A DNA stretch of 43,170 nucleotides. Source: a virus. Below are positions 23,508-31,553 of this stretch, in pieces. The DNA lies in IMG/VR virus record IMGVR_UViG_3300033153_005623, positions 1 through 43,170 of that record; one strand, written 5' to 3'. The position numbers and the translations under genes are program-made. Within the stretch, counting starts at the first letter, position 1. Each line of letters starts with the position of its first letter. The notes beneath the pieces were generated by a model that was not told the origin of the DNA, did no database searches, and was given only the letters and a program-made list of their open reading frames with translations.

Positions 23508-23735
23508 ATGTTAGAACTAAAAATTGATCATGTAAAAAAAATTATGGCTGAAAAAAATATATCTGGCTATTGGTTAGAAAAAGAAACTCGCCAAAATAGA
23601 GAAGATTATCCTATTATTTTAACTCAAGTCATGATTAGTAAGGTGTTAAATGGGTATAAAAAACCATCAATTAATTTTATCAAAACATTAGGATTGGTTT
23701 TTGAGGTTAGATGGAAAAGTTTATTGGAAGATTAA
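23508..23735 (+). CDS. Xre-like HTH regulator
   Basis: From the ATG at 23508, which has AAAGGAG eight bases upstream, the product has 75 residues. A longer GTG frame starting at 23487 has no such site. The protein has the layout of a lambda-repressor-type HTH domain: helix LKIDHVKKIMAEKNI, a YWLEKET region, then a recognition helix TQVMISKVLNGYKKPSINFIKTLG, a strong match to the typical STISRILNGKRKPS segment. The product probably binds an operator in this arm. Confidence 0.7.
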   Translation: MLELKIDHVKKIMAEKNISGYWLEKETRQNREDYPIILTQVMISKVLNGYKKPSINFIKTLGLVFEVRWKSLLED

Positions 23736-23794: not shown

Positions 23795-23835
23795 TACTGG
23801 GGAATCCTTTCCTTTCATAAAATCCCTCCCCAGTA
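23795..23835 (+). promoter_or_regulatory. Hairpin between HTH gene and exported gene
   Basis: TACTGGGGA (23795-23803) and TCCCCAGTA (23827-23835) make a 9-bp perfect stem with a 23-base loop. Only a few T follow, so termination would be weak. A 24-codon frame starting at 23772 with an AAGGTG site runs through it and stops at 23846, so a leader-peptide attenuator is also conceivable. Confidence 0.5.
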
Positions 23836-23842
23836 TTTCTCC

Positions 23843-23872
23843 TTGACTACGTGAGAAAATATTAAATACATA
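23843..23872 (+). promoter_or_regulatory. Candidate promoter before exported gene
   Basis: TTGACT (23843-23848), 18 bases, TACATA (23867-23872). Its expected start near 23879 lies beyond the ATG at 23873 and so favours the ATG at 23891 for the following gene. Confidence 0.5.
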
Positions 23873-23890
23873 ATGAAAGGATCATTTGTA

Positions 23891-24185: not shown

Positions 24186-24214
24186 TTGACTAATTTATAA
24201 AATTATTGTATAGT
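24186..24214 (+). promoter_or_regulatory. Strong promoter of replication operon
   Basis: TTGACT (24186-24191), 17 bases, TATAGT (24209-24214). The start near 24221 gives a leader of about 100 bases. Confidence 0.8.
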
Positions 24215-24228
24215 AGTCAATACTAAGC

Positions 24229-24323
24229 AACTGCAATGCTATCAATTATTTAACTATGGGGCGTGAGGTTTTCATGCAGTTCACCAAAAAAGCCCCTCTA
24301 CTCTCAAAAGGAAACTGCAATGC
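24229..24323 (+). promoter_or_regulatory. Structured leader with alternative pairings before replication gene
   Basis: AACTGCAATGC occurs at 24229-24239 and again at 24313-24323, where it covers the space before the start codon and the ATG itself. TGCAGTT (24275-24281) can pair with AACTGCA of either copy but not both. GGGGC (24258-24262) can pair with GCCCC (24292-24296), interleaved with either helix, so pseudoknots are possible. The 15 bases at 24248-24262 (ATTTAACTATGGGGC) recur exactly at 33313-33327. Pairing with the second copy would block the start site; pairing with the first would free it. Confidence 0.6.
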
Positions 24324-24976
24324 AAGAAAAAAATACATTCATAAAACCAATAAAATGGTTCACTCAAGTCCATAATGCAATTATTAACGATGCAAATGTA
24401 TCTTTAAAAGCTAAAGGTTTATACTTATACCTAGAGTCTAAGCCAGATGGATGGGATTTTTATATAAAAGAAATAGCCTTAAATAATAAAGATGGATTAG
24501 AATCTGTTAGAGGATCACTTAACGAACTTCAATCAAATGGATACATTGAGAAAGTTCAAACAAAAAATGAAATGGGTCAATTTAGCTCTTATGATATTAA
24601 GCTTATATATAAACCGTGTGCGGGTAACCCTGTATCGGGTCAATCGAACGCTAGTAATACTAATATATTAAATAATACTAACTTAAATAATAAAAAAGAA
24701 ACTAAAGTTTCTACAAAAAAACCCGCCATAGAACACAAAGGCACAAAACTTCCTACTGATTGGCAACCCTCTACATCTTCGGCAGAACACTTAGAGAATG
24801 AGCTTGGATACCCAGCAGATCAAATAAAAAGGGAGTATTTGAGTTTTATTGACTACTGGACTGAGGGAGATGGAATGGGCAAAAAGAAGATCAATTGGGA
24901 TTCCGCATTTAAGAATTGGGTAAGAAAAAGACCACCATTTAAAAACAACAGAGATACGTCAAACGGGATATTTTAG
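24320..24976 (+). CDS. Replication initiator/helicase loader-like (HTH + DnaT-like)
   Basis: The 218-residue protein has an N-terminal winged-helix-type domain (about 8-95: FTQVHNAIINDANVSLKAKGLYLYL, a two-helix DNA-binding arrangement ending in the wing NELQSNGYIEKV). An Asn/Thr/Lys linker follows, then a C-terminal segment (about 150-210: LPTDWQPS...F.DYWTEGDGMGKKKINWDSAFKNWV) of the type found in DnaT and phage helicase-loader proteins. It probably binds the origin and delivers the phage primase-helicase. I chose ATG 24320, with AAGGA 8 bases upstream, over an in-frame GTG at 24263 that would lie inside the structured leader. Confidence 0.75.
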   Translation: MQEKNTFIKPIKWFTQVHNAIINDANVSLKAKGLYLYLESKPDGWDFYIKEIALNNKDGLESVRGSLNELQSNGYIEKVQTKNEMGQFSSYDIKLIYKPCAGNPVSGQSNASNTNILNNTNLNNKKETKVSTKKPAIEHKGTKLPTDWQPSTSSAEHLENELGYPADQIKREYLSFIDYWTEGDGMGKKKINWDSAFKNWVRKRPPFKNNRDTSNGIF

Positions 24977-25476: not shown

Positions 25477-27177
25477 ATGAATTGGAGAGGAAAGTTAAAC
25501 GAATTAGGCATAAATGCAAGCAAATCAGGCAAGTATACATGCCCCAATTGCTCACATACACGAAAAGACAAAAGAGACCCATGTCTTTCAATTACATTCA
25601 CATCTACGGCAGTTAAGTATAAATGCCATAATTGTAACATAAAAGGCATAATACCATTTGAGGAAAGTAATTTTATAGAAAAACAAGTGAAATCCTATAA
25701 TAAACCAAAACCCATTATAAGCATCACACAGGATGATAAATTAAAAACACTGGGTGATAGTAGGAAAATATCATTAAGCACACTCAGTGTCTATGACATC
25801 TCATTTAACAGTATATCTGAGATAGTATTCCCCTATTATAAGTATGGTGAACTTGTAAATATCAAATATCGTAAGAATTTATCAGATGGAAAGAAATCTT
25901 TTAGACAAGAGGCTGGAACAGAAAAAACATTTTTTGGGATGGATCAAGTTCCTACTGATTGCAAAGAGCTTATTATTGTTGAGGGTGAGTGGGATGTTTT
26001 GAGTTTCTATGAAGTTGGTTTGTATGCTGTAAGCGTGCCACAAGGAGCAAGTGAGCATAAACTTGAATGTATTGACAATTGCTTTGAATGGTTAGAGAGT
26101 TTTGATAGTTTTGTTATAGCGGTTGATTCAGATGATGCAGGTAAAAAGTTAGAATTAAAATTAATTGATCGTTTAGGAAAGGGAAAATGTAAAATAGTTG
26201 ATTGGTCTCGATATGAGATAGAAGGAAAGGATGCAAACGACTTTTTAATGAAAGATGAAAGTGGTGTCTTAATTGATGCTGTTCAATTATCTGAATATAT
26301 CCCATTAGACGGCGTAGAGTTTTTTTCTTCTAAAAAAAATTCGATATTAAGTGAATATAGAAAAGAGCATAACGTTGGATTATCTACTGGATGGGATAAT
26401 GTTGATGAAATATTTAAAATACAAACAGGTAGAGTAATGATTATAACAGGAATACCTACTCGTGGAAAATCATTCTTTGCCGATAATTTATTAATAAATC
26501 TTTCTAAACTTCATGATTGGAAGCATTTAATTTGTAGTTTTGAAACTTCATCCTCTACTCATTTTAGAATGTTAAGTCAAATGGTTATAGGGAAAAGTTT
26601 TGATACAGAAAAATCAAATTGTATGAATGAAAGTGAAATACAAAAATCTATGAATTATTTAGATAGTCGATTTTTACGTTTGTCTGAGAATGAATGCTGG
26701 TCTATTGATGATATTTTAGAAAGAGCTGAATATTGCATAAGACGTTATGGAATTAAAACACTTACAATAGACCCGTACAATAGATTAAGACAAGAAAACT
26801 ATGATAGAGAGGATAAGTTTATCGATTCTATACTAGCTAAGCTATCATCTTTCTCTAAAAAACATAAAATACTTGTTATATTTATTGCTCATCCTACTAA
26901 AATGAGAGAAGGTCAAGATAAACCTAATATGTATTCAATCAGTGGTGGGGCAAGTTGGTATAATATGGCTGATTATGGTATTATCATACATAGAGACAGA
27001 TTGGTTACAGGTGAGTTATCGACAGAAACAAGTGTTATTATACAAAAAGTAAAAGATACAAGTTTAGGTAATCCTGCTGGTGGAACTGTTAATCTTATGT
27101 ATAATTTTAAAACATTATCACTTGTTAAATCTGTATTAATAAAACAATCAATATTTACAAAAGGATTAGGAAAATGA
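25477..27177 (+). CDS. Bifunctional DNA primase-helicase (T7 gp4-like)
   Basis: This 566-residue protein has three parts. A zinc-binding primase finger has CPNC (22-25) and CHNC (50-53). A TOPRIM domain has IIVEGEWD (166-173) and AVDSDDAGKK (215-224). A RecA/DnaB-type helicase has Walker A GIPTRGKS (325-332), SFETSSS (354-360), Walker B LTIDPYN (429-435), IAHPTK, and the GGASWYNMADYGI..HRD finger region. T7 gp4 is exactly 566 residues. It primes and unwinds at the fork. The gene ends in ATGA, shared with the next gene. It has a GAAAGGA ribosome site. Confidence 0.95.
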   Translation: MNWRGKLNELGINASKSGKYTCPNCSHTRKDKRDPCLSITFTSTAVKYKCHNCNIKGIIPFEESNFIEKQVKSYNKPKPIISITQDDKLKTLGDSRKISLSTLSVYDISFNSISEIVFPYYKYGELVNIKYRKNLSDGKKSFRQEAGTEKTFFGMDQVPTDCKELIIVEGEWDVLSFYEVGLYAVSVPQGASEHKLECIDNCFEWLESFDSFVIAVDSDDAGKKLELKLIDRLGKGKCKIVDWSRYEIEGKDANDFLMKDESGVLIDAVQLSEYIPLDGVEFFSSKKNSILSEYRKEHNVGLSTGWDNVDEIFKIQTGRVMIITGIPTRGKSFFADNLLINLSKLHDWKHLICSFETSSSTHFRMLSQMVIGKSFDTEKSNCMNESEIQKSMNYLDSRFLRLSENECWSIDDILERAEYCIRRYGIKTLTIDPYNRLRQENYDREDKFIDSILAKLSSFSKKHKILVIFIAHPTKMREGQDKPNMYSISGGASWYNMADYGIIIHRDRLVTGELSTETSVIIQKVKDTSLGNPAGGTVNLMYNFKTLSLVKSVLIKQSIFTKGLGK

Positions 27178-28257: not shown

Positions 28258-28848
28258 ATGAAAGCACCAGAACAGGTAGGTGAAAACAAAAGCTCAGGCA
28301 AAGGTTTTCAATCTCCAGAAGCGGGTAAATCAAGAGCTTGGGTATATAAGATTATTGATCTTGGTACTCAAGAAACAGAATATCAAGGAGAAGTTAGTTA
28401 TAAACGACAACTTATGTTTCTATTCGAGTTAGTTGATCAATTAATGGAAGATGGCAAGCCTTTAGTTATTCCTAAAACATATACTTTTTCATTTTATGAT
28501 AAAGCACGTTTGTATATGGATATTGATTCATGGATGGATGGATCTGCTTTTGAAGGAATGGAAAACCCTTCTTCTGAGTTTGATACAGAGGTTTTATTTA
28601 AAGTACCTTGTGAGCTTACAATAGAAACAAAGGGTAAAGGAACATACATTACTAAAATAGGACGCTGTAAGAGTACTGAGGGTCTTACTCAACGTGTTAA
28701 TCCATCTTTAGAATTTTCATTGGATAATTTTGACGAAACAACATATAATGGATTTTCAGATAAGATGAAAGCAAAAATAGCTTTATCTCCAGAATACCAA
28801 TCAGTAATGAAATCAATTAATGAAGCAAAGGAGGCTTTAAATGGATAA
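28258..28848 (+). CDS. Candidate single-stranded-DNA-binding protein
   Basis: The 196-residue protein has an N-terminal flexible Lys/Gly/Ser stretch, then a beta-rich central part: W.YKIIDLGTQETEYQGEVSYKRQLMFLFEL, LVIPKTYTFSFYDKARLYMDIDSW and TEVLFKVPCELTIETKG.TYITKIG. It ends in acidic helical residues. Phages with T7-like primase-helicases often have a protein of this type annotated as ssDNA-binding or unknown. Its placement between primase, resolvase and GapR supports a replication role. The OB fold is inferred, not shown. Confidence 0.5.
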   Translation: MKAPEQVGENKSSGKGFQSPEAGKSRAWVYKIIDLGTQETEYQGEVSYKRQLMFLFELVDQLMEDGKPLVIPKTYTFSFYDKARLYMDIDSWMDGSAFEGMENPSSEFDTEVLFKVPCELTIETKGKGTYITKIGRCKSTEGLTQRVNPSLEFSLDNFDETTYNGFSDKMKAKIALSPEYQSVMKSINEAKEALNG

Positions 28849-29080
28849 TTCTCAACACACAAAAGATCGCATTAATTCATTTGTTAATCGAGCTAATAAT
28901 ATAGAAGAAAGTATAAAAGATCTACGTATTGATTTAGCAGAAGTTTTTAAAGAAGCTAAAGATGATGGATACGATGTGTCAACAATAAAAAAAGTAATTA
29001 AACTATTGCGTAAAGATGCAGGTGAATTAGAACAAGATGATTTGTTTGAAAAACTATATCGTGAAGCTGTAGGTATCTAA
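28841..29080 (+). CDS. gapR: GapR/DUF2312-like DNA-binding protein
   Basis: The 79-residue protein has the GapR signature: a long N-terminal helix with RINSFVNRANNIEESIKDLRIDLAEVFKEAKDDGYDV, then IKKVIKLLRKD and a helix ending in LYREAVGI. GapR binds overtwisted AT-rich DNA ahead of polymerases and supports replication in Alphaproteobacteria. The gene overlaps the ssDNA-binding candidate by 8 bases and is followed by a terminator. The phage copy may structure phage DNA or redirect the host's GapR sites. Confidence 0.85.
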   Translation: MDNSQHTKDRINSFVNRANNIEESIKDLRIDLAEVFKEAKDDGYDVSTIKKVIKLLRKDAGELEQDDLFEKLYREAVGI

Positions 29081-30725: not shown

Positions 30726-31553
30726 ATGAATGATAAGAAAAATAATACAGGAGACAGTAATACAGGAGACAGTAATACAGGAGACAAGAATACAGGAAAC
30801 TGTAATACAGGATACTATAATACAGGAAACAGTAATACAGGAGACTGGAATACAGGAAACAGGAATACAGGAAACAGTAATACAGGAGACTGGAATACAG
30901 GAGACTGTAATACAGGAAACAGTAATACAGGATACTGGAATACAGGAGACTGGAATACAGGAAACAGTAATACAAGAGACAAGAATACAGGAAACTGTAA
31001 TACAGGAAACTGTAATACAGGAAACAGTAATACAGGATACTGTAATACAGGAGACTGGAATACAGGAAACAGGAATACAGGAAACAGTAATACAGGAGAC
31101 TGGAATACAGGAGACTGTAATACAGGAGACTGGAATACAGGAAACAGGAATACAGGATTTTTTAATACAGATTCACCTGATACTATTAGAGTATTTGGAA
31201 AAGAAATAGATATTAACAAGTGGGATAAATCCTATAAACCTTCTTTTTTATATTTTAACTTAACAGAATGGATATTAGAAGAGGATATGACTATAGAAGA
31301 AAAAACACTGTATCCCGATTCTCATATAACAGGAGGGTATTTAAAAAAGTATGAGTATAAAGAGGCGTTGCAGAAATCTTGGAATAAAGCAGATCCAAAA
31401 GATAGAATTCAAATTAAAGACTTACCTAATTTCGACGCTGATATATTTTATGAAATTTCAGGAATAAAAGTTGATCGTAAAATAACAATTGATGGTAAAG
31501 ATATTGAATTGAGTGAAGAAAGTTTTAATGAACTTAAAAAGCAATTAACTTAA
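30726..31553 (+). CDS. Pentapeptide-repeat protein with conserved C-terminal domain
   Basis: The 275-residue product has 28 contiguous five-residue units of the form N-T-G-x-x (residues 7-146), where x-x is DS, NS, DW, NR, NC, DC, YC and so on. The units belong to the pentapeptide class found in DNA-mimicking beta-helix proteins. The C-terminal 125 residues are a separate domain (FYFNLTEWILEED.T..E, ITGGYLKKYEYKEA, DLPNFDADIF.EI) that I have seen attached to such repeats in phage and bacterial proteins. It may be a beta-solenoid binding a nucleic-acid enzyme, but the function is unknown. AGGAGAA ribosome site. Confidence 0.8.
   Translation: MNDKKNNTGDSNTGDSNTGDKNTGNCNTGYYNTGNSNTGDWNTGNRNTGNSNTGDWNTGDCNTGNSNTGYWNTGDWNTGNSNTRDKNTGNCNTGNCNTGNSNTGYCNTGDWNTGNRNTGNSNTGDWNTGDCNTGDWNTGNRNTGFFNTDSPDTIRVFGKEIDINKWDKSYKPSFLYFNLTEWILEEDMTIEEKTLYPDSHITGGYLKKYEYKEALQKSWNKADPKDRIQIKDLPNFDADIFYEISGIKVDRKITIDGKDIELSEESFNELKKQLT
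30744..31163. repeat. 28 copies of a 15-bp unit
   Basis: The unit is AATACAGGAGACAGT with mainly the third and last codons varying. The period of 15 bases keeps frame and encodes the N-T-G-x-x array. Two reverse-strand frames and one other forward frame also stay open across it, because the repeat contains no stops in those frames. These are shadows. Confidence 0.95.

Follow-up and report, generated by a model that had tools for sequence, protein, structure and literature searches.

A pseudoknot-capable leader at the start codon of a phage replication initiator is a candidate RNA control element

The mRNA of a phage replication initiator begins with a leader of roughly 100 bases that contains two copies of its own start region and a hairpin whose loop is complementary to both. 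We consider it about an even chance (roughly 0.5) that this leader is a cis-acting RNA element controlling initiator expression, in the manner of satellite phage P4 or of plasmid rep genes. It probably restrains phage replication at the level of RNA, by way of a putative switch. We regard the strongest competing explanation, a structured leader of the ordinary kind with expression controlled by the promoter, as unlikely.

The initiator gene and its leader

We analyzed a virus record of 43,170 bases from IMG/VR (the window), which has a G+C content of about 30%. The leader elements, the initiator and the primase/helicase gene are on the plus strand. The gene at 24320–24976 encodes a 218-aa protein that matches the DnaT C-terminal domain (Pfam, 1.6e-8) and several replication-initiation PHROGs (best 2.7e-16), and its N-terminal part is common to phage replication initiators. 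No Pfam match other than DnaT was found for it. Given the DnaT domain and the PHROG matches, “replication initiator” appears to be a fair name for the product. The gene order is a small protein (23508–23735), a DUF6440 protein with a signal-peptide-like N-terminal start (at 23873 or 23891), the leader, the initiator, a 142-aa protein and a DNA primase/helicase (25477–27177). The initial annotation had assigned the leader to a replication initiator, which is borne out by these matches and by the location before the primase/helicase. Farther downstream, the window encodes a GapR-like DNA-binding protein (28841–29080; Pfam 1.4e-15), whose family is best known from Alphaproteobacteria, a hint as to the host. 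Within an open frame at 30726–31553, a 15-nt unit (AATACAGGAGACAGT, with variant forms) is repeated in an array that spans 30742–31160.

The sequence AACTGCA occurs at 24229–24235 and at 24313–24319, and its complement TGCAGTT at 24275–24281. The annotation had proposed that TGCAGTT pairs with either copy, and we confirmed these positions in the window sequence. The copies are in fact longer than the 7 nt first noted. AACTGCAATGC is an exact 11-nt direct repeat at 24229–24239 and 24313–24323, and the second copy extends across the initiator ATG (24320–24322), which lies immediately 3′ of the second AACTGCA. This copy directly follows the initiator Shine-Dalgarno sequence AAAGGA (24307–24312). 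Between the copies, GGGGC (24258–24262) and GCCCC (24292–24296) form a hairpin with TGCAGTT in its loop. This stem interleaves with both alternative helices, so that each state is a pseudoknot. The pairing arms in the window are AACTGCAATG/CATGCAGTT and GGGGC/GCCCC.

Both copies are complementary to the loop, and the pairing of the 3′ copy runs through the start codon. Specifically, the loop CAUGCAGUU can form 9 bp with AACUGC-A-AUG, with one bulged A, and these pairs include two bases of the start codon. Predicted duplex energies with the loop are −10.1 kcal/mol for the 5′ copy region, where the best duplex of the program combines the core of 7 bp with different pairs at its flanks, and −10.3 kcal/mol for the 3′ copy region. 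On reading the sequence, 10 of the 11 repeated bases fall inside a possible loop duplex, as they also do in the predicted duplex of the 3′ copy. This would be a reason for the repeat to exceed 7 nt.

The arrangement is beyond ordinary background, with numbers that are post hoc. In dinucleotide shuffles of the leader, which give post hoc p-values because the feature was picked after it had been seen, a 7-mer flanked on either side by its complement arose in 29 of 3000 cases and an 11-nt direct repeat in 8 of 3000. On the same post hoc basis, two interleaved perfect helices that each stack at −12.8 kcal/mol or lower were present in 5/1500 shuffles (touching the start region in 3/1500), and a hairpin with a loop complementary to the start region downstream of it in 2/3000. 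Two of the 42 leaders in the window have a similar arrangement over the start region, namely the initiator's and that of the neighboring gene (start 23891); per 42 leaders, shuffles yield 0.13 such cases when the cut-off is loosened and none when it is stricter.

The neighboring leader belongs to the DUF6440 gene, whose likely start is 23891. At 23795–23882 it has a strong hairpin (TACTGGGGA/TCCCCAGTA) with a loop, ATCCTTTC, that could pair with GAAAGGAT in the Shine-Dalgarno region of this gene. The loop-to-start-region arrangement is common to these two adjacent genes.

Folding, transcription signals and alternative explanations

In the nested ensemble, the GGGGC/GCCCC stem forms with a probability of ~0.99 and is accompanied by an inner stem, GUGAG/UUCAC (24263–24284). 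Pairing between the 5′ and 3′ copies, via the quasi-palindrome UGCA.A.UGC, has a probability of ~0.95 and hides the U and G of the initiator AUG. The helix of the 5′ copy with the loop has a probability of ~0, and that of the loop with the 3′ copy ~0.001; possible occlusion of the ribosome-binding site by the latter helix, a candidate counterpart to the OFF state of plasmid rep leaders, is negligible in this ensemble. Forcing either helix costs 7–10 kcal/mol in nested folding because each breaks the G stem. According to the model, the only way for either helix to form would be as a pseudoknot with that stem in place. Such pseudoknots are plausible in view of the stacking energies, −12.9 kcal/mol for the alternative arms and −13.2 kcal/mol for the stem. 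Opening the start site is predicted to cost 6.8 kcal/mol, which ranks third among the 42 window genes and is no outlier. The initial annotation had suggested a switch between mutually exclusive helices. The complementarity on which this idea depends is present, but the energy model does not yield balanced alternatives; it pairs the two copies with one another instead. As modeled, folding decides neither for nor against a switch.

A sigma70-like promoter, TTGACT-17-TATAGT, is predicted at 24186–24214 (10 of 12 matches). Transcription would start near 24221, which is about 8 nt upstream of the 5′ copy, and the RNA should therefore include every arm of the leader. The promoter is embraced by a 7-nt inverted repeat (TTGACTA-N21-TAGTCAA, 24186–24220) that may be a repressor operator. 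Opposite the leader, the minus strand has only weak promoter matches. With 52 promoter-like sites versus 41 +/- 7 in shuffles, the region is close to the random background, and the promoter scan of this region of the window found no convincing antisense promoter. A scan of the window found no intrinsic terminator after the leader hairpin, and DnaA boxes near the leader were not above chance.

These data could be explained by an ordinary structured 5′ UTR, in which a GC-rich hairpin lies by a chance repeat and its complement, and the promoter with its operator-like inverted repeat sets expression. The modest pairing energies, a nested ensemble that ignores both proposed helices and a ribosome-binding site that is not exceptionally closed are all consistent with this explanation, and the dyad at the promoter offers a simpler means of control. 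Moreover, a two-sided 7-mer of some kind turns up in about 1% of shuffles, and this feature was one of many that were examined. On the other hand, shuffles seldom produce strong interleaved helices that reach the start, 40 of the 42 window leaders lack them, the repeat ends nearly where the complementarity to the loop ends, and interleaved helices are enriched before relatives of the initiator (see below). Overall, we find an ordinary leader unlikely, although it is the main rival.

The AACTGCA copies, two direct and one inverted, could instead be DNA sites, i.e., operators or iterons for the initiator or for a helix-turn-helix repressor. Initiators often bind repeats beside their own gene, and the leader has three copies within 91 nt. 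However, the copies are unevenly spaced, and the GGGGC/GCCCC stem would be left without a role. Only two other AACTGCA sequences occur in the 43 kb, far off near 6.6–6.8 kb, and the sites therefore do not belong to a larger group of operators. We regard DNA sites as improbable.

Next in order, and also improbable, is coupling to a leader peptide. A candidate ORF of 33 codons (24274–24375) has the Shine-Dalgarno sequence GAGGU and is out of frame with the initiator; it may encode a leader peptide or have arisen by chance. Ribosomes initiating at ATG 24274 would translate across the initiator start, opening or blocking it, in a way comparable to repY and repZ of ColIb-P9-type plasmids. An overlapping ORF with a Shine-Dalgarno sequence this strong occurs in 1.3% of shuffles, and the inner stem, which covers GAGGU, would gate it. 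However, this ORF extends ~53 nt past the initiator ATG, while known coupled leader ORFs end before the initiator start.

The annotation had also likened the leader to a translational riboswitch or autoregulated leader. The architecture downstream of the promoter is real and rarer than chance. Nothing suggests a small-molecule ligand, and a metabolite-binding riboswitch is very unlikely: pseudoknots near the start codon are known in several translational riboswitches, yet the leader has no Rfam match at the gathering score (a permissive search gave only a chance match), no conserved aptamer-like core and no homologs.

Proposed mechanism and relation to known systems

If the leader is an RNA control element, the GC-clamped hairpin would present CAUGCAGUU in its loop. 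Capture of the loop by the upstream copy, AACUGCAAUG, would leave the start codon free (ON). Capture by the other copy, which lies between the Shine-Dalgarno sequence and the AUG and over the AUG, would block the start (OFF). A trigger could occupy the upstream copy or supply a second loop in trans, which would limit initiator synthesis. This trigger would most likely be an RNA from the same leader or its complement; the initiator protein is a less likely candidate.

By analogy, the leader would be a variant of already known RNA-controlled initiator leaders. In phage P4, the complementary sequence in the CI RNA is named seqB. The loop segment CATGCAGTT (24273–24281) is seqB-like, and the upstream and downstream copies are seqA-like and seqC-like, respectively. 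In both systems, an untranslated leader of a replication operon contains a copy, a complement in a structured segment and another copy (seqA-CI-seqC in P4). In the window, this layout is found at 24229–24239, 24275–24281 and 24313–24323, and the initiator and primase/helicase genes are downstream. The P4 RNA is processed from the leader and pairs with both flanking sequences, shutting off the replication genes of the prophage (PMC4825925). The part of that paper on P4 immunity cites Sabbattini 1995 and Briani 2000. The two systems differ in that the processed RNA terminates transcription in P4, whereas no termination signal was found in the window leader. Moreover, their sequences are unrelated, and in the window it is the start codon itself that the downstream copy covers.

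The plasmids pT181, pIP501 and pSK41 likewise have initiator leaders that fold into alternative helices, which are set by an antisense RNA (PMC5703833). The helices decide termination in pT181 (pre-emptor versus stem-loop IV) and pIP501, and ribosome access in pSK41 (PMC5703833). These plasmids have a known counter-transcribed RNA, whereas no antisense promoter stands out in the window. The window initiator differs as well, having no Pfam match other than DnaT.

A further relevant example is repZ of the ColIb-P9, IncB and IncIalpha plasmids. In these plasmids, a hairpin loop pairs near the initiator start, the resulting pseudoknot controls translation and a leader ORF lies beside it. The window leader is similar in that loop pairing is possible close to the initiator start with a candidate leader ORF alongside. 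However, the pseudoknot activates repZ, whereas the 3′ pairing in the window covers the start and would repress. The ORFs also differ, since that of the plasmids ends before the start and that of the window overlaps the initiator.

Leaders of related initiator genes

We found no homologous leader by DNA similarity in phage, plasmid and IMG/VR collections, only short chance matches, and the exact hairpin does not occur elsewhere in IMG/VR. Searching for the three arms with variable spacing gave two matches, but both are within helicase-like coding sequence and were rejected as chance. A 14.5-kb record (IMGVR_UViG_3300033148_004872) encodes a head-tail protein that is 100% identical to the window's; given how long this record is and which way it runs, it probably stops before the leader. 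The window's initiator is a deep branch in the tree. The nearest initiators are ~40% identical, and their leaders do not align with that of the window. Genes beside ~50%-identical primases have no detectable homology to the window initiator. A test for identical arms among 85 relatives gave just two weak cases, and a duplicated start region is not a general trait, being seen only in L090 and its near-copies.

Interleaved helices of other sequence are nonetheless enriched among these relatives. We took leaders of initiator relatives from IMG/VR, phages and plasmids, and a script chose those without an ORF of at least 60 aa in the upstream 120 nt. These were de-duplicated, and the window was excluded. 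We counted interleaved perfect helices at p ≤ 0.003 against each leader's own shuffles, and used leaders of other genes on the same contigs as controls. Such helices occur in 10 of 32 unique free-standing initiator leaders (including L030, which is discussed below) versus 4 of 178 control leaders (Fisher 1.1e-6). When a family of four is counted once, the numbers are 7/29 versus 4/178 (1e-4). Restricting positives to the four families in which a promoter most clearly precedes the first arm, a subset of our own choosing, gives 4/29 (0.015). Most positive leaders have a promoter-like site, of the sigma70 or the Bacteroidetes TAnnTTTG type, that predicts transcription to begin slightly upstream of the first arm (by a few bases), as in the window; in L147, L195, L059 and L032 the site is not clear or is distant. 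Judging from these sequences, this kind of leader appears to recur, differently spelled, before diverged relatives of the initiator gene.

Two of the leaders are nearer in logic to that of the window. In L049 and L103, hairpin loops can pair with the Shine-Dalgarno region (CCUACGC/GCGUAGG and UUCUCUAG/CUAGAGAA, respectively), and a promoter lies just upstream of the first arm. Two cases of loop-to-Shine-Dalgarno pairing at that cut-off compare with 0.05 expected in 49 leaders.

Five other leaders (L136, L145, L147, L149 and L195) form a family with two hairpins whose loops are complementary, the second hairpin being terminator-like and located directly before the initiator. We assigned the arms by eye, and checked perfect complementarity and order by script. 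The variants of the loop-loop helix are GTGAGAG/CTCTCAC, GTAGGAG/CTCCTAC, GTGGTAG/CTACCAC and GTAGTGAG/CTCACTAC. All are perfect, with compensatory changes at several pairs. The stems vary in a compensated manner as well, one as CGAAAG/CTTTCG, CGAAAA/TTTTCG and CGGAAG/CTTCCG, and the other as AAGCCGG/CCGGCTT, AAGCCTG/CAGGCTT and AAGCCAG/CTGGCTT. No Rfam entry matches this element at the gathering score. We consider the kissing-loop and terminator leader a candidate new RNA family.

In two pairs of relatives, the leader has been replaced. L136 and L143, both from metagenome 3300020044, have the promoter and the initiator in common (mostly 80–98% identity in the initiator gene), but the leader, at 1869–1992 in each, is swapped. 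Likewise, L157 and L181 have kept the TAnnTTTG promoter and the initiator with a different leader. Leader identity drops to about 43% and 32% in the two pairs, respectively. The replacement leader is unrelated, yet it again has complementary loops (GATCTCAC/GTGAGATC). Replacement is expected for a control RNA that sets specificity, as in immunity or incompatibility; other causes are possible.

Tentatively, we suggest that tailed phages widely use swappable pseudoknot or kissing-loop initiator leaders for immunity or copy control, and that the window leader is a translational version in which a decoy copy competes with the start codon. This broader proposal is less probable than the role of the window leader itself. 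To date, P4 and plasmids are the main known examples of such an RNA-based layer. A search of open-licence papers turned up no description of leaders like these upstream of initiator genes in ordinary tailed phages, which is weak evidence of absence. Restraint of replication in temperate and plasmid-like phages is mostly explained by protein repressors. If the proposal is true, an RNA layer would be set by few base pairs and hence be quickly swappable, and leaders could decide which related phages coexist in one cell. Simple reporters would suffice to test this idea, given the family with covariation and the replaced leaders in relatives.

Additional observations concern individual leaders. L030 and L072 (2360–2490 in each) have promoter-like sites before and inside a long inverted repeat. 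At first sight they resembled perfect anti-anti-Shine-Dalgarno switches, but we rejected them as clean RNA examples: the second promoter lies between the arms, and a shorter transcript would lose half of the structure. A segment between the two sites is complementary to an anti-Shine-Dalgarno sequence, so control would not be alike for the long and the short transcript. In L126 and L127 (1880–2004 in each), GCTGGGGAGC/GCTCCCCAGC is interleaved with ATAGTAGGT/ACCTACTAT and followed by a run of T, an arrangement reminiscent of a classical attenuator, here upstream of the initiator gene. Finally, the strongest of the control leaders (L005, upstream of 638) adjoins a gene preceding a primase/helicase, and is possibly another initiator leader.
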